Under the pieces are notes generated by a model. The model had not been told where the DNA came from, ran no database searches, and saw only the letters and a program-made list of their open reading frames with translations. From IMG/VR virus record IMGVR_UViG_3300030339_000278, positions 1 through 20,210 of that record: 20,210 nucleotides of DNA. One strand, written 5' to 3'. This DNA comes from a virus. Shown in pieces: positions 11,192-17,225 of the stretch. The position numbers and the translations under genes were made by a program. The stretch's first letter is position 1; every line of letters starts with the position of its first letter.

Positions 11192-11723
11192 ACGTCCTAA
11201 AACCGAGGTCTAGGAGTTGTGCTCGAAATGCAATTTCATATGGCATCGCGTTGAACTTGAATTTCGTATTATTGACTGCAAAATAGATCAAATGCCGCAT
11301 ACCATCATTTGCGTGACGGAACGCTTTGGAATATAGGTTTAAATCCTTGAGAACTTGATCTGATACGAAACTCTTACCCTGAGCCGGAGTCTGAGAAAAC
11401 AGAGGATAACCTCTACGCTTCGCCCAAGTCTTAATCGTTCCGATATACTCCTTTGAATCTAGTCGAGTGCCTGCACGCGATGTATTGCGGAACTCGAAAG
11501 ACTCATACACGATGAAATATCGATCAACTCCCTCAGAATACTTTGCGAGGAAATCCTCGAGTTCTACGTGATGTTCCATAGGGCCGAGTTGTTCAACTAA
11601 AAACTGCGGAGTGAATGGTTCCGGCCTGTCAAAACCAAACTCTGGTTCAGGATTATCCATAAGAGTAACCATAGCAATACCTGTGGTACCGCCGGGATCG
11701 AATGCAATAATTCTAGTTTTCAC
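11190..11723 (-). CDS. RuvC-like Holliday junction resolvase
   Basis: This 177-residue protein of the RNase H-like RuvC superfamily is expected to cut branched DNA during phage recombination or before packaging. AFDPGGTTG at 7-15 carries the first metal-binding Asp (Asp9). IVYESF at 71-76 carries the Glu (Glu74). FRHANDGMRHLIYF at 135-148 holds the C-terminal acidic/His site (His137, Asp140). Length matches the family (about 150-190). It starts at GTG, overlapping the polymerase stop as GTGA, so it is coupled to the polymerase. Its stop sits in the T-tract of the terminator. Confidence 0.88.
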   Translation of the reverse strand: MKTRIIAFDPGGTTGIAMVTLMDNPEPEFGFDRPEPFTPQFLVEQLGPMEHHVELEDFLAKYSEGVDRYFIVYESFEFRNTSRAGTRLDSKEYIGTIKTWAKRRGYPLFSQTPAQGKSFVSDQVLKDLNLYSKAFRHANDGMRHLIYFAVNNTKFKFNAMPYEIAFRAQLLDLGFRT

Positions 11724-14107
11724 GTCAACTCACCCCAAGAATTTCCAACAGAAGAATCAACTGCGAACTTCACGTACCCTTCAACAGCCAGATCAGCAGA
11801 CTCAAGCATAAAAGTACGCAATACATTCTGAATAGTATCAACCTCATCTTCGTGGCACTCAACCATGATAGAGTCATGGACAAGATTAAAGATGCGAGGA
11901 CGATTTTCAGGATCATAGTTCTCAGCTGCCCACTTGTTAAATCGAATAGCTGCACGCAGACAAACATCAGAAGCCGTAGACTGCGGCATGAAAGCCAAAG
12001 CCTCATTCATGATGTTATTGATGTTTTCCTCAGTAAGAAGAGTGTAACGACGATGCCTCCCAAAAGGAGTCACCAAATCCTCGCCATTCTTAACCTGCAA
12101 TCGGATCATTTTCTGCCAATTGATGATCTGAGGAATAACTGCAAAGAAGGACTTCATATGTTTACGTGCCAATTCCACAGGAATACCGAAACCATGAGCA
12201 ATACCGTATTCAGTACGACCATAGTTAAGCCCATAGACGTAAGTCTTAACCATTGTTCGCTGTTCTTTCCATATGTCTTTGTTAAGCGTAGCCTTAACAG
12301 ACCCAGGATACAGCACTGGCACAAGTTCATCGAACACATCACGAGAAGGATCGTTGAAAATATCACGGAAATACGTGTCCTTTGCAAAGTAAGACAGAGT
12401 TCTCAGTTCGGCCTGAGAATAGTCCATATTGATGAATCGATTGTCTGGTCTTGACGGAACATACATCTTTTTGATGGGTGATTGACGTGGAATATTCTGT
12501 AGATTCGGGTTCCTACTAGAGAGACGTCCGGTAGTAGTTCCATGAAGAAGGTACGAGCTATTGATTCGGCCTTTATAGAGCCGGTCCTTAACTCCTGTGA
12601 TGTAAGTTCCGTTAAGTTTGGTTTCGTGTCGGTAGTCGAGAAGCATAGTGGCAAAGTCACGCACAAGTTTGTCGTTATTCGGAAATTTGCCATCATAATT
12701 AACGACCCCGGTCATCGTTTCTTCATCTGTGGAGTCTAACTTGATTCCAAGATCAAGGAACATCTTCTTGATTTGCATCCAAGAGCCGGGATTGATGCCA
12801 TCGCCCTTAACGTAACCCTTCGGATTAACCTGATAAGCCATCACAGACAAGTAGTGCTCTTTAGTCATGATTGATAGATCGAAATCCTCAACCAATTTCT
12901 CGAGATATTCCTTGTCAATTGTAATGCCTTCATATTCAACGTCCATAAGCATATCCGAAATCTCACACATGAAAGCATGTAGGTCTGTAAGACCTTGCTC
13001 TTCCATCATGACTTCAAAAAGCTTCTTCAGTTGATAAGTACATTCCACGTCATACGCATTGTAACGATACAGAATGTCTCGGGGAATCCTAGAGAAATCC
13101 CGATCAGTTCCAATATACGCTTTAATTGCATCGTCATAAGCAGGAGCACCAAGAAATTCCTGTGCCATGTACTTAAGGCCATGAATTCCTGTCCTCTCGT
13201 CTAGACAATAAGAAGCAAGCATGGTATCGAAACCAAGCTTTTGCTTTCCAACATATTTGCGGATACCATTAAGATCAAACTTGCCATTCTGAGCAATGAT
13301 ATTACACAGACGCATCAAACGCTTAAGATGTGCCCAAACTTCCTGAACTAATGCAGTATCAGTGAGTACCACAGGAATATCATTGTCGATCTTTAGACCA
13401 ACACAAAGCATAACGTGCCGCTCAGGATGCCCGAAACTCTCATCCTTGTCGAGAACACACTCAATGTCGATTGTGAGGTCTGGTTGTGTTGTGTACTTAC
13501 TAGTAACAGCTGCAACTAAGAAATCATACGCCTCGACCGGATCGTCAATTACAACGTATTTCGGTTCCTTGAATTGCTCGACTTTGTGGAACACTTTACC
13601 AAGGTCAGCTACTAGATTAGGAAACTGTGATTCCTGTCGCATACAAACATACGGATTTACTGTGGGAATCACATCGTTACTTATCCAATCTGAACGCTTT
13701 GCCGGGCCTACCCTAAGCGAAGCTATCCCGGTGCGTCCTAGCACGCTAGAGGCCGCCTCATTGCCTAGCGTGACCACAGGACCGGACGTAGCTGCCGCAA
13801 TCTCAGCTATAACTCTTGGCCGACAAGCAACAACTGCTTTAGCAGGAACTTTTTTATCCGCTGGCCGACAAAGTACAGCAGTAGTGTAATAGTAAGTTGG
13901 ACTATGACCGTGATGCTTAAAGACCTTGTTAACGAGTTTTCCCGCCTGAGTGTTCTCATATCCTCCATTGTATTTCTCCTGTAAGCTCGGCATACCACCG
14001 ATCAATACAATGTCAGTTTTGTGTGATGGGTCGTCATAACCCATAAACTCTGCATGACCGTAAAGAGGGCAGTTTTCACAATCAGTTAATGGGTGTAGGG
14101 GTTCCAT
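11720..14107 (-). CDS. DNA polymerase I with proofreading domain and N-terminal UDG-like domain
   Basis: This is the replicative family A polymerase, 795 residues from the ATG at 14107. Residues about 8-178 resemble a family 4 uracil-DNA glycosylase. The Fe-S cysteine pattern C-x2-C (10, 13) and C-x14-C (80, 95) is complete, but the usual GEAPG motif reads GGMPS (37-41) and the HPS-type motif reads VNPY. The 3'-5' exonuclease follows with DIE (Asp214, Glu216), NGKFD (Asp278) and YNAYD (Tyr349, Asp353). Polymerase motifs are intact: RLSS and NLQNIP, motif A DYSQAELR (562-569), motif B R617-x3-K621-x3-Y625-G, and motif C VHDSIMVE (Asp745, Glu750). There is no 5'-3' exonuclease. Tyr in motif B is T7-like. 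A TTG at 14167 would add 20 residues but deepens the overlap with the upstream gene. Confidence 0.95.
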   Translation of the reverse strand: MEPLHPLTDCENCPLYGHAEFMGYDDPSHKTDIVLIGGMPSLQEKYNGGYENTQAGKLVNKVFKHHGHSPTYYYTTAVLCRPADKKVPAKAVVACRPRVIAEIAAATSGPVVTLGNEAASSVLGRTGIASLRVGPAKRSDWISNDVIPTVNPYVCMRQESQFPNLVADLGKVFHKVEQFKEPKYVVIDDPVEAYDFLVAAVTSKYTTQPDLTIDIECVLDKDESFGHPERHVMLCVGLKIDNDIPVVLTDTALVQEVWAHLKRLMRLCNIIAQNGKFDLNGIRKYVGKQKLGFDTMLASYCLDERTGIHGLKYMAQEFLGAPAYDDAIKAYIGTDRDFSRIPRDILYRYNAYDVECTYQLKKLFEVMMEEQGLTDLHAFMCEISDMLMDVEYEGITIDKEYLEKLVEDFDLSIMTKEHYLSVMAYQVNPKGYVKGDGINPGSWMQIKKMFLDLGIKLDSTDEETMTGVVNYDGKFPNNDKLVRDFATMLLDYRHETKLNGTYITGVKDRLYKGRINSSYLLHGTTTGRLSSRNPNLQNIPRQSPIKKMYVPSRPDNRFINMDYSQAELRTLSYFAKDTYFRDIFNDPSRDVFDELVPVLYPGSVKATLNKDIWKEQRTMVKTYVYGLNYGRTEYGIAHGFGIPVELARKHMKSFFAVIPQIINWQKMIRLQVKNGEDLVTPFGRHRRYTLLTEENINNIMNEALAFMPQSTASDVCLRAAIRFNKWAAENYDPENRPRIFNLVHDSIMVECHEDEVDTIQNVLRTFMLESADLAVEGYVKFAVDSSVGNSWGELT

Positions 14108-14363
14108 CGAAATTCGATCCTGTCTTTTTAAATCCGGCTGTAGCTGCTTGCGCAGCCATGAATTCAAGAATGGACGAAATCAGAATCCCCGTCCGCTGTG
14201 CATGGAGAGAAATAGCAGCTAACTCAAGCTCTAAGAACTCAAGAGCATCTACTAAGTTTCCCTCCCCAGCTAGTGCTGGTAAACCCTCATTGATAGTAGC
14301 CATGTTATCCACGAACTTATCAATGTACTCGCCTTGCTTCTCTTCTGATAAACTAATGTCCAT
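14082..14363 (-). CDS. Small helical protein of unknown function (93 aa)
   Basis: The ATG at 14363 lies one base after the primase-helicase stop (TAAAATG), with AGGGA 5-6 nt upstream. The 3' end overlaps the polymerase start by 26 nt, so it is coupled on both sides. The sequence is acidic and looks mostly helical (KQGEYIDKFVDNMATINEG, then ALEFLELELAAISLH), ending in a Gly/Pro/Thr tail. It has no Cys, signal peptide or long membrane segment. Longer upstream frames (to 14423) start inside the primase gene and are less likely. Sitting between primase-helicase and polymerase, it could be an adaptor or replisome subunit. I do not recognise it. Confidence 0.72.
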   Translation of the reverse strand: MDISLSEEKQGEYIDKFVDNMATINEGLPALAGEGNLVDALEFLELELAAISLHAQRTGILISSILEFMAAQAATAGFKKTGSNFDGTPTPIN

Positions 14364-14364
14364 T

Positions 14365-16575
14365 TTAGTCCCTAACGTAGTACAGGAATTGGTCGCCGCT
14401 AGCCTTCTTCTCAATAATTCCACGATCTACAAGTGTGTCGAAAACAGCGACAGCCTCACGTGAAGAAAGTTTGAATGTACGCATAATACGACTACGACTA
14501 GCTCCCTCATTTCCACGCTTCCTGATAGATTCAAGAATTGTGTCGAGTTTACGCTCTGTTGTAGACTTGCCGACATTCTCAATAATTTCTTGTGAGTAAG
14601 CTCGCCACTGTTCTCCATACTTGATAGCTCTAAGAATATCTTGGAGTTCAACTAGGACAGTATCATCTTCTCGTTGCCTTGCTGATGCGATTAATACTGC
14701 TGCCTTAAGGATAGACTTAGAAAGACGATCACCAACAGGAGTATAAATATCAGGAAGAGAAGATTGAGTACCAAGCTCGACGAGTCGGAACTCCAATTTA
14801 TTGTATCTCTCCCAAGCGTCATCCGTAAGATACGCATCAAACTCTTTTTTACTTTCAATTTCAGCATCTGCACCTGCAAAATGAAGCAGTCTAATTCCAT
14901 TGTAGTGATCGTAAATATCCTTTAACTCAGCAGAGATAATTCCACGCTCAAGAGTAATCTTTTGAGTAGGAGGACCAAGAGGTTTGATCTTGCTAACATC
15001 AGACTCAGCTGTGATGAAAATAAATCGTGGCAAGAATCCAGATGCAACGTGATCGAACGTAACCGCAGATGTAACACGGTTCTTGATTCCTCCACCGAAA
15101 ATGATGAGCCGAGGATCACGAACCTCAATGATTTCCTTACGAAGAATGCGCTTTTGGAGTTTTCCATCGTACAGCTTCGTAAGCATTTCAGGCATTCCTG
15201 CCATGTAGTCCTTTTTAGCCATCGATTCGATCAAGCCAGAAAACTCGTCACGAAGGAAGATAGATGGCTGATTCGGACGCAGAGAAAGGCTAGTAAACAT
15301 ACCCTCAATAGAACCATCAGTTGCAAGGATTGTATTAGGATCAACTTCTTCCAGAAGTTCCATTGCAATGTCCATTGAAGTAGTTTTACGAGTCAGAGTC
15401 GTGTCTGCGAGAATCATAAACCACAGATTAGGATAGATATTACCGAATGAGGTTGGGAGTTTCACGCTACCACAGAGGATAGCAGACAACAGAATGAAAG
15501 CGCCAGCTTGATGATACTGATAAGCTGCGTCACCTAAAGAAGATGCCCAATCGATATAGTGCTCAACAAATCCCTTAGGAAGTTTTGCGACTAATTCAGA
15601 TTCAGCGCGTGTCATCAAAGTCTCGACATTTGCAAAATCCTCGACAGGCAAATTCTTCTTCAATTGTGCTGCTTGCTCGGCTCGACAAACTTCTTTCCAA
15701 AGCTGAGAACTAGCTCTCTTATCGCGGGCGTACTTATTACACGCAGCATCCCTAGCAATAATGAAAACCTTTTCCCGAGGGAATCCAGCTTCAAAAAGAA
15801 GGAGTTCAAGCTGCCATAGCTTTTCGCTCCATTTGTGTTCCGGCGGTACTTCTGTGAACAGCTTAATTACAAGAGGACTTACCTCTCGACGCACCTTTTC
15901 AAGTATCTGTTCTCCTGACTCCTGTGGTAGCTCGACAGGGAATTCCGCATCGATGTAATCGTAACCGGGAAGTAAAGGATAGTCCTTAAACTCGTCCATA
16001 CGATAGTACAACTTTTTGATTTCCCTGATCTTTACCACAGGGTAACCCATGTTGCCAACATCAGGATATTTGAAATTGAATGTGTCGGGAACGCGCAGAA
16101 GTTGAGTCAAATCCCAACCGCTAGTGTCTGCTCCTGTTTTTTCATGGTAGTAAGCAATGCGCTTACTTAAATCTTCAGCATCTTTAGGGTCAATCGTTGT
16201 AGAAGGATCAAATAGCCAATAAGCCTGATAGCGATTAGGCGACGATTCAATAACAACCGACGGAGGAATCAGCATATTGTCTGGATTACAACGATCTAAG
16301 TCTGACCATGCGTTAGTAGTTAGGGAGACGTATTCTTTCTTACGCTTCTTCTCTGCAAACAACTGTGGACAAAAGTAAGCATGATTATCTGCACCATACT
16401 GCTCGACGCATTCAAGCGCCTGATCCAGATCGTCGGGATAGGTGAACCAAAATTCCCGCATGTTACGTTTGTCAGATGTGTCCAGAAACGAAAGACATAG
16501 GTAACCCCTATTTCTTCCGAACAGGAGTTTGAAAAACATCTCACGCTTAAATTTAGAGCTAACCTCTTCAACCAC
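14365..16575 (-). CDS. Primase-helicase: AEP/RepB-like primase plus DUF3987-type ATPase
   Basis: This 736-residue protein should unwind DNA and lay primers at the phage fork. The N-terminal part (about 40-200) resembles archaeo-eukaryotic type primases. AWSDLD at 89-94 supplies the acidic pair, 'VVIESSPNRYQAYWLF' at 107-122 the second motif, and RVPDTFNFK at 161-169 the third. A linker follows (about 210-330). The ATPase (about 355-525) is like DUF3987. Its P-loop reads ADTTLTRKTT (390-399), with Lys397, and lacks the usual glycines. SIFLRDEF (438-445) is the Walker B (Asp443, Glu444). The C-terminus (about 675-735) looks like a winged helix. It starts at GTG, since an in-frame stop lies six codons upstream and no ATG precedes. 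The ribosome site is weak, and a structured leader lies 33 nt upstream. Confidence 0.88.
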   Translation of the reverse strand: MVEEVSSKFKREMFFKLLFGRNRGYLCLSFLDTSDKRNMREFWFTYPDDLDQALECVEQYGADNHAYFCPQLFAEKKRKKEYVSLTTNAWSDLDRCNPDNMLIPPSVVIESSPNRYQAYWLFDPSTTIDPKDAEDLSKRIAYYHEKTGADTSGWDLTQLLRVPDTFNFKYPDVGNMGYPVVKIREIKKLYYRMDEFKDYPLLPGYDYIDAEFPVELPQESGEQILEKVRREVSPLVIKLFTEVPPEHKWSEKLWQLELLLFEAGFPREKVFIIARDAACNKYARDKRASSQLWKEVCRAEQAAQLKKNLPVEDFANVETLMTRAESELVAKLPKGFVEHYIDWASSLGDAAYQYHQAGAFILLSAILCGSVKLPTSFGNIYPNLWFMILADTTLTRKTTSMDIAMELLEEVDPNTILATDGSIEGMFTSLSLRPNQPSIFLRDEFSGLIESMAKKDYMAGMPEMLTKLYDGKLQKRILRKEIIEVRDPRLIIFGGGIKNRVTSAVTFDHVASGFLPRFIFITAESDVSKIKPLGPPTQKITLERGIISAELKDIYDHYNGIRLLHFAGADAEIESKKEFDAYLTDDAWERYNKLEFRLVELGTQSSLPDIYTPVGDRLSKSILKAAVLIASARQREDDTVLVELQDILRAIKYGEQWRAYSQEIIENVGKSTTERKLDTILESIRKRGNEGASRSRIMRTFKLSSREAVAVFDTLVDRGIIEKKASGDQFLYYVRD

Positions 16576-16608
16576 TTTACGACTTTCTTAGATCGTGACG
16601 ATTAGGGA

Positions 16609-16701
16609 ACAACAGGTTATATGAGCCATGTGGAACGCATGAACACCCAGCTACCTCAGTGTTATAGCTCATATTATTACGTAGGTATCAGCACCTGTTG
16701 T
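16609..16701 (-). other. Predicted structured leader / three-way junction (RNA or origin element)
   Basis: This lies in the 134-nt gap between DUF669 and the primase-helicase. Outer stem P1 is 9 bp (16693-16701 with 16609-16617). Inner stem P2 is 8 bp (16667-16674 with 16619-16626). Inside P2 sit a 5-bp hairpin (16659-16663 with 16642-16646, 12-nt loop) and a 4-bp hairpin (16638-16641 with 16627-16630, 7-nt loop), packed without gaps against P2. An 18-nt bulge (16675-16692) separates P1 from P2 on one side, with one base on the other. Bulge 16683-16687 can pair with loop bases 16652-16656. Its polarity is unknown. It could be a leader RNA of the primase-helicase mRNA or a DNA hairpin at an origin. 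Confidence 0.5.
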
Positions 16702-16709
16702 CTTAGTTA

Positions 16710-17225
16710 TTACGGCAGAAGCGAATTGGTCTTACGCTTCGCGCCAGCCTTAACATTGGTGTCGTTAAGAGGCATGAATCCCTTAACAGAGTTCTCGTAA
16801 ACGGCAGGGTCTTTAGGATCAACGCCCCAAGTCTTACGCTTACGCTGGACATTGGCGATCAGCTTCTTGCCCTTGAACTCTTCAGCTTCAGGAACATCAG
16901 ACTTGGTCTCAACAATGTGAGCAAATCCTGTTGCCTTAAGCCACTGAGACATATAGTAGTTGTTCGGCTTGCCGGTTTTCTTGTCGTAGACCGTGAACAG
17001 CATGATGTTCGGCCAGAACTTACGATTGTTATAGGGAGAAGTCTCATCCTCCACAGTAAGCGTAACGTGGAACATCAGCTTACCAGCATTCTCGCCCTTC
17101 TTAACTTCAGCGAGTTCGATATCCGAAACAATGCAGGTGTAATCGCCAGCAGGAACAGGCTCGAAATTAGCGGAGCTACCCTCGGCAACCAAATCCTCTT
17201 CAGAAAAATCAATCTTGAAACCCAT
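16710..17225 (-). CDS. DUF669-like protein, putative ssDNA-binding protein
   Basis: This 171-residue protein has the DUF669 pattern: an acidic start (IDFSEEDL), FEPVPAGDYTCIVSDIE at 21-37, a beta-rich middle (LMFHVTLTVED, then NRKFWPNIMLF), YYMSQWLKATGF near 90-101, and a basic end (KRKTWG, then AGAKRKTNSLLP). Phage DUF669 proteins sit next to Sak4/RecA-like or Erf-type recombinases and are thought to be OB-fold single-strand binders. Here it follows the Sak4-like ATPase and precedes the primase-helicase, which fits. AGAAGGG at 17233-17239 is 7 nt from the ATG. The acidic tail usual for SSB is missing and the C-terminus is basic instead. Confidence 0.82.
   Translation of the reverse strand: MGFKIDFSEEDLVAEGSSANFEPVPAGDYTCIVSDIELAEVKKGENAGKLMFHVTLTVEDETSPYNNRKFWPNIMLFTVYDKKTGKPNNYYMSQWLKATGFAHIVETKSDVPEAEEFKGKKLIANVQRKRKTWGVDPKDPAVYENSVKGFMPLNDTNVKAGAKRKTNSLLP

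Follow-up and report, generated by a model that had tools for sequence, protein, structure and literature searches.

The slot between the SSB-like and primase genes of a large phage group is nearly always filled by a compact RNA structure

What fills the short non-coding slot between two replication genes of a phage, and on which molecule does selection act there? The question arises in the window, the whole 20,210-base stretch of viral DNA analysed here, where a gene for a DUF669/SSB-like protein (16710..17225, minus strand; Pfam DUF669, E 3.5e-8; PHROG 378, single strand DNA binding protein, E 3e-6) is separated by 134 nt (16576..16709, minus strand) from a primase gene (14365..16575, minus strand, GTG start at 16575; PHROG 10514, DNA primase, E 2e-101; DUF3987 and RepB_primase). 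Genes and element all lie on the same strand, and the element thus occupies the SSB-primase slot followed through the relatives below. The original prediction for this gap was a compact three-way junction with a possible pseudoknot, acting either as a leader RNA for the primase gene or as a DNA hairpin at a replication origin.

The stems themselves are present as described. The outer stem P1, a perfect helix of 9 bp, pairs ACAACAGGU (16693..16701, minus strand), which starts 8 nt past the SSB stop codon, with ACCUGUUGU (16609..16617, minus strand), the end of which we measured at 33 nt 5' of the primase GTG, the distance originally given. P1 encloses the inner stem P3, a perfect helix of 8 bp between AUAUGAGC (16667..16674, minus strand) and GCUCAUAU (16619..16626, minus strand). 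Inside P3 we found the two further hairpins that had been claimed, packed with no gaps between: an apical hairpin of 6 bp, AACACU-GAGGUAGCUG-GGUGUU (16642..16663, minus strand), and a small hairpin of 4 bp, CAUG-CGUUCCA-CAUG (16627..16641, minus strand). The 18-nt strand on the 5' side (16675..16692, minus strand) consists of an A-rich linker and, in the predicted fold, a weak 3-bp hairpin, UAC-CUAC-GUA (16678-16687). Perfect nested stems of 9 and 8 bp arose in only 3 of 4000 dinucleotide shuffles, and no other instance occurs within the window.

The three-way junction stood in part. It is the minimum of the DNA fold (z -4.5; none of 200 shuffles equally good), but among RNA folds it is suboptimal and lies about 1.8 kcal/mol higher than the minimum (z of the RNA fold -2.7; 2 of 200 shuffles equally good). 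In the RNA minimum, at -30.9 kcal/mol for the element, the inner stem grows from 8 to 11 bp and the CAUG hairpin is open; this hairpin therefore belongs to the DNA minimum and, as RNA, to suboptimal folds only; the apical hairpin is present in both RNA and DNA folds. A pseudoknot of 5 bp between the 18-nt strand and the loop of the apical hairpin could form by pairing UACCU (16683-16687) with AGGUA (16652-16656), and an alternative would pair CUAC (16681-16684), the loop of the 3-bp hairpin in the predicted fold, with GUAG (16651-16654). Roughly half of the ribosome-site region is unpaired in the predicted ensemble. We also considered a read-through stimulator at the SSB stop, which is ruled out by the tandem TAA TAA with which the gene ends.

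To place the element among its relatives, we gathered homologous loci by primase similarity from IMG/VR and a collection of annotated phages, found the SSB gene with an iterated profile, and excised the stretch from SSB stop to primase. Removal of near-duplicates left 94 gaps with a median length of 126 nt, measured between the SSB stop and the point at which the primase profile begins. In this large phage group the slot is nearly always filled by a compact RNA structure. A strong stem was found in 72 of the 94 gaps (helix score of at least 25 in 58, and of 20-24 in 14); the rest comprise eight with tRNAs predicted by ARAGORN, three longer than 300 nt, ten of lower score, several of them three-way-junction types with short outer stems, and one with no gap. 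The median helix score was 31, against 17 in coding controls, 77 of 261 of which scored at least 20. Furthermore, a score of at least 25 was reached by 69% of slots versus 12% of the gaps of 60 nt or more elsewhere in the same loci, the other junctions of which mostly overlap (median -4, by a crude gene caller). The 5' arm of the slot helix begins at a median of 10 nt past the SSB stop, and the outer stem of the window follows the same layout: it begins within about 20 nt of the stop codon and closes short of the ribosome site of the primase. In many slots there is nothing more than a plain hairpin, its loop 6-10 nt long, and no sequence is common to the whole set. Two loci depart from the arrangement. 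In L168 (2485-2491), the only such relative among those examined, the SSB and primase genes nearly abut and the element is absent. In L198 an extra gene stands between the SSB gene and the structure, and a related structure stays beside the primase gene, which may mean that the structure belongs to the primase side.

Close relatives of the window element are few. A DNA similarity search of annotated phages returned none, and a scan with the SSB protein matched only L001; a scan for the inner-stem pattern matched 104 viral stretches, of which L001 alone lay at the same locus, while L065, the sole other candidate examined from that scan, proved unrelated. The element in L001 is identical, with no variation in either candidate pseudoknot.

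Comparison of stems in more divergent relatives indicates that pairing has been maintained by compensatory change, as the original prediction required of homologous gaps. The sets were compared in a register taken from flanking or loop sequence, independently of pairing. Hairpins with the loop CGCACC had 77 of 78 cells paired, and 11 of their 13 positions had changed on both sides; the group anchored by TAATTGAATAGGAGG had 84 of 84 cells paired and double-sided changes at 10 of 12 positions; and in the group anchored by TAAGCG all 44 cells were paired, with double-sided changes at 6 of 11 positions. These counts are somewhat favourable, since the arms were picked by eye within the anchored registers. 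Also, the window can be set against L003, whose primase is 82% identical: both flanks can be aligned and the element cannot, yet in this single comparison 17 of 18 cells of the outer stems are paired, with one C·A, even though both partners differ in 6 of 9 pairs.

The mismatches in these helices identify the molecule concerned. Helices were sought with Watson-Crick pairs only, and G·T and A·C mismatches were therefore penalised equally. Across the family, the slot helices contain 34 G·U (G·T) mismatches versus 2 A·C, a skew with a sign-test probability of about 2e-8 when relatedness is ignored, whereas in segments of matched length taken from other parts of the loci the best helices have 51 and 50, respectively. 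Because G·U is kept and A·C is avoided, the selected molecule is the sense-strand RNA and not a DNA hairpin, and the orientation of the element is fixed to the gene-sense strand. The slot would be read as part of the operon RNA.

The content of the slot is exchangeable among simple hairpins, three-way junctions and tRNA genes. L151 and L156 are ~96% identical at the SSB end and 98% identical at the primase start, and the elements between are unrelated; their divergence starts near the SSB stop and stops just 5' of a common ribosome site. Similar turnover of stems between conserved flanks is seen in L231, L232, L193 and L248. Among cultured phages, the Curtobacterium phage Nonagon and phage Quantum have a strong hairpin in the slot, and tRNAs occupy the slot or its equivalent in Yappy (Leu), also a Curtobacterium phage, WaterT (Leu), Platte (Lys), Jojan60 (four tRNAs) and Molivia (Gly and a second, atypical tRNA). 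In Molivia, an Arthrobacter phage (L115:2597-2750), the two tRNA-like genes that fill the slot have atypical anticodon loops. A separate observation concerns L162, in which the slot (1688-1762) holds a predicted tRNA with the anticodon TTA that would read the UAA stop codon.

No known RNA class accounts for the window element. At the gathering threshold, Rfam, including its riboswitches and ribozymes, gave no match in the window or in 19 related loci, and at permissive E-values only weak and irrelevant matches appeared; this agrees with the earlier remark that no named riboswitch fits. A tRNA cloverleaf was found neither by ARAGORN nor by the Rfam model, and the idea that the element is a degenerate tRNA is unsupported. 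Nor was the simple terminator that had been offered as an alternative borne out at the window, where no intrinsic terminator is predicted and P1 is followed by UCCCUAAUCG, with no U-tract. With the slot structured in nearly all relatives, stems that covary and no Rfam match, the suggestion of an undescribed phage RNA element is supported. In a limited search of the open-access literature, we found no description of the SSB-primase slot, nor of any fixed non-coding site in phage replication operons that is nearly always structured and rarely with the same structure.

Some slot subfamilies do carry conserved motifs, among them UAAGARC with a covarying pseudoknot, UUAAACGAC and the loop CGCACC, which suggests that in these subfamilies the job is more specific than punctuation. 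The first of them is defined by the common motif CUAG-S-ACUAG-RUAAGAR. A scan of IMG/VR for this motif matched 54 contigs, some of them coding or chance, and ~20 share a common layout: a variable P1; P2 with the loop GCAC or GGAC; a linker; P3; GUGC or GUYC; and the 3' arm of P1. The loop is predicted to pair with its downstream partner, GCAC with GUGC and GGAC with GUCC, and the key pair covaries (C-G in 8, G-U in 4, G-C in 3 and other in 1). Because the motif search set the loop position to C or G and left the partner free, this pairing is an independent result. In addition, for the whole structure both the paired cells and the covariation score exceeded every shuffle and every slid control. 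We regard it as a new phage RNA, predicted to be pseudoknotted, in ~20 contigs (L336:8318, L337:8957, L340 on the minus strand, L356:1670, L371:1792, L378:1353, L382 on the minus strand, and others). It is often near tRNA genes (L335, L356, L361, L366 and L367) and in two cases lies upstream of a DNA polymerase or SSB gene (L336 and L382). For the slot members L137, L165 and L190 Rfam gave no match, and a BLAST search of cultured phages with this RNA gave nothing convincing.

The window element resembles this RNA in architecture and is not a member of it. Both have, in this order, an outer stem, a short hairpin, an A-rich linker and an inner stem with a loop that could pair back, in the window by the candidate pairing of CUAC with GUAG, and some members lie in the same SSB-primase slot; however, the conserved motif is missing from the window element, and a covariance model of 16 members found no match in the slot with filters off and up to E = 10. 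As for the other motifs, the UUAAACGAC subset aligns too poorly for a useful consensus fold, and among the matches listed for the GACGASGTTACRAAAGC motif of another slot subset, those outside the slot looked mostly like chance or coding. In L144, L158, L161, L163, L169, L180 and L185 the loop CGCACC is invariant and the stems are fully variable; CCCUAAC...AGGGCAG follows, in which the pyrimidines next to the stem would be able to pair with the ribosome site.

What might such a slot do? We tentatively favour, while rating it at somewhat short of probable, a structure-generic element with a processing or insulating role between the messages for SSB and primase. The slot can be filled by a plain hairpin, by a junction or by a tRNA, and a role that requires structure of any kind would be the simplest account; for the same reason, the wholesale exchange of hairpins, other folds and tRNAs fits such a role better than it fits recognition of one particular fold. 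The folded block would punctuate the operon message between the two genes. Stems in the slot might be cut by a double-strand-specific enzyme of the RNase III type, and slots bearing tRNAs by tRNA-processing enzymes; after processing, the 3' end of the SSB message would be protected, and primase would be uncoupled from SSB translation.

Other readings must be weighed against this one. It is possible, though we doubt it, that the slot is a cargo site for stable non-coding RNAs that are excised as tRNAs are and act in trans, with different RNAs in different phages and tRNAs as one kind among them. The tRNAs in the slot, the wholesale swapping of elements and the pseudoknotted subfamily, whose conserved sequence is also found elsewhere in genomes and often beside tRNA genes, would all fit; the many slots that hold only a plain hairpin, with a loop too small for cargo, and the lack of any sequence shared by all slots do not. 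A related proposal, which we consider unlikely, is a hypervariable cassette site whose swapped small RNAs work in trans, with host RNA metabolism or defence as possible targets. If true, the cassette contents would include the window element, the new pseudoknotted family and tRNAs, among them the one that reads a stop codon, and their roles would go beyond the separation of messages. Equally unlikely, in our judgement, is the leader of the original prediction, regulating translation or transcription of primase, perhaps through a bound ligand such as SSB, primase or a metabolite. The element does lie just 5' of the primase start, the structure in L198 stays with primase despite the intervening gene, and in several groups the ribosome site has a potential pairing partner in pyrimidines past the stem; but neither fold nor sequence is conserved and tRNA genes can substitute, a poor fit to specific recognition, and the ribosome-site region of the window is about half unpaired in the predicted ensemble.

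That the element terminates or attenuates transcription, such that primase and polymerase transcripts fall below those of SSB, seems more improbable still. Hairpins without U-tracts are reportedly used as terminators in some bacteria, many members are strong GC-rich hairpins right after the stop codon, and pyrimidines are frequent in the first bases past the stem (T 0.43 and C 0.43 at position 1). Nevertheless, only 7 of 75 slots have at least five T in the first eight bases after the stem, most helices being without a U-tract; outer stems that enclose around 50-150 nt are not terminator hairpins; and no terminator-like site is predicted at the window element. Two readings can be given very little credence. 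The DNA hairpin as a replication origin or primase loading site, the second half of the original prediction, would accord with the adjoining SSB and primase genes and with the strong DNA fold, but the tolerance of G·U and not of A·C places selection on the transcribed strand, there is no slot-wide sequence conservation, and tRNA genes can take the place of the hairpin. That the structure of the window arose by chance is just as hard to credit: its RNA fold alone is only moderately unusual, and helices scoring at least 20 are not rare in coding controls, yet the nested stems are unique in the window and seldom seen in shuffles, the homologous slot is structured throughout the family, and the stems of L003 remain paired despite altered sequence.

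Several known systems resemble the slot in part. The early region of phage T7 has RNase III processing sites, structured intergenic RNAs within one phage transcript, and the slot resembles them in that a structure stands between genes of one transcript and its position outweighs its exact sequence. However, the structures in the slot are swapped among relatives, tRNAs and three-way junctions included, the slot is confined to one fixed gene junction, and cleavage there by RNase III is a proposal. Similarly, polycistronic transcripts can be punctuated by tRNA genes, and extra small RNAs, such as RNA C and D of T4, accompany the tRNAs in phage clusters. Likewise, tRNA genes occupy the same slot in several relatives, and the pseudoknotted RNA of the slot stands beside tRNA genes elsewhere; in contrast, the window element is no tRNA and most slots are without one. 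The mRNA of T4 gene 32 has a pseudoknot on the 5' side of the SSB gene, to which it is specific; this too is a structured RNA adjoining a phage SSB gene, whereas the slot is found on the 3' side of SSB and has no conserved fold.

The slot can be seen as a natural experiment on what is required of intergenic structure, with hairpins, junctions and tRNAs all filling the same place, and its contents indicate at least one new family of pseudoknotted RNAs. The occurrence of tRNA genes just 5' of primase in actinophages may have its explanation here too. Beyond the slot, the window encodes at 11720-14167 (minus strand) a Family A DNA polymerase that carries a uracil-DNA-glycosylase-like domain at its N terminus.
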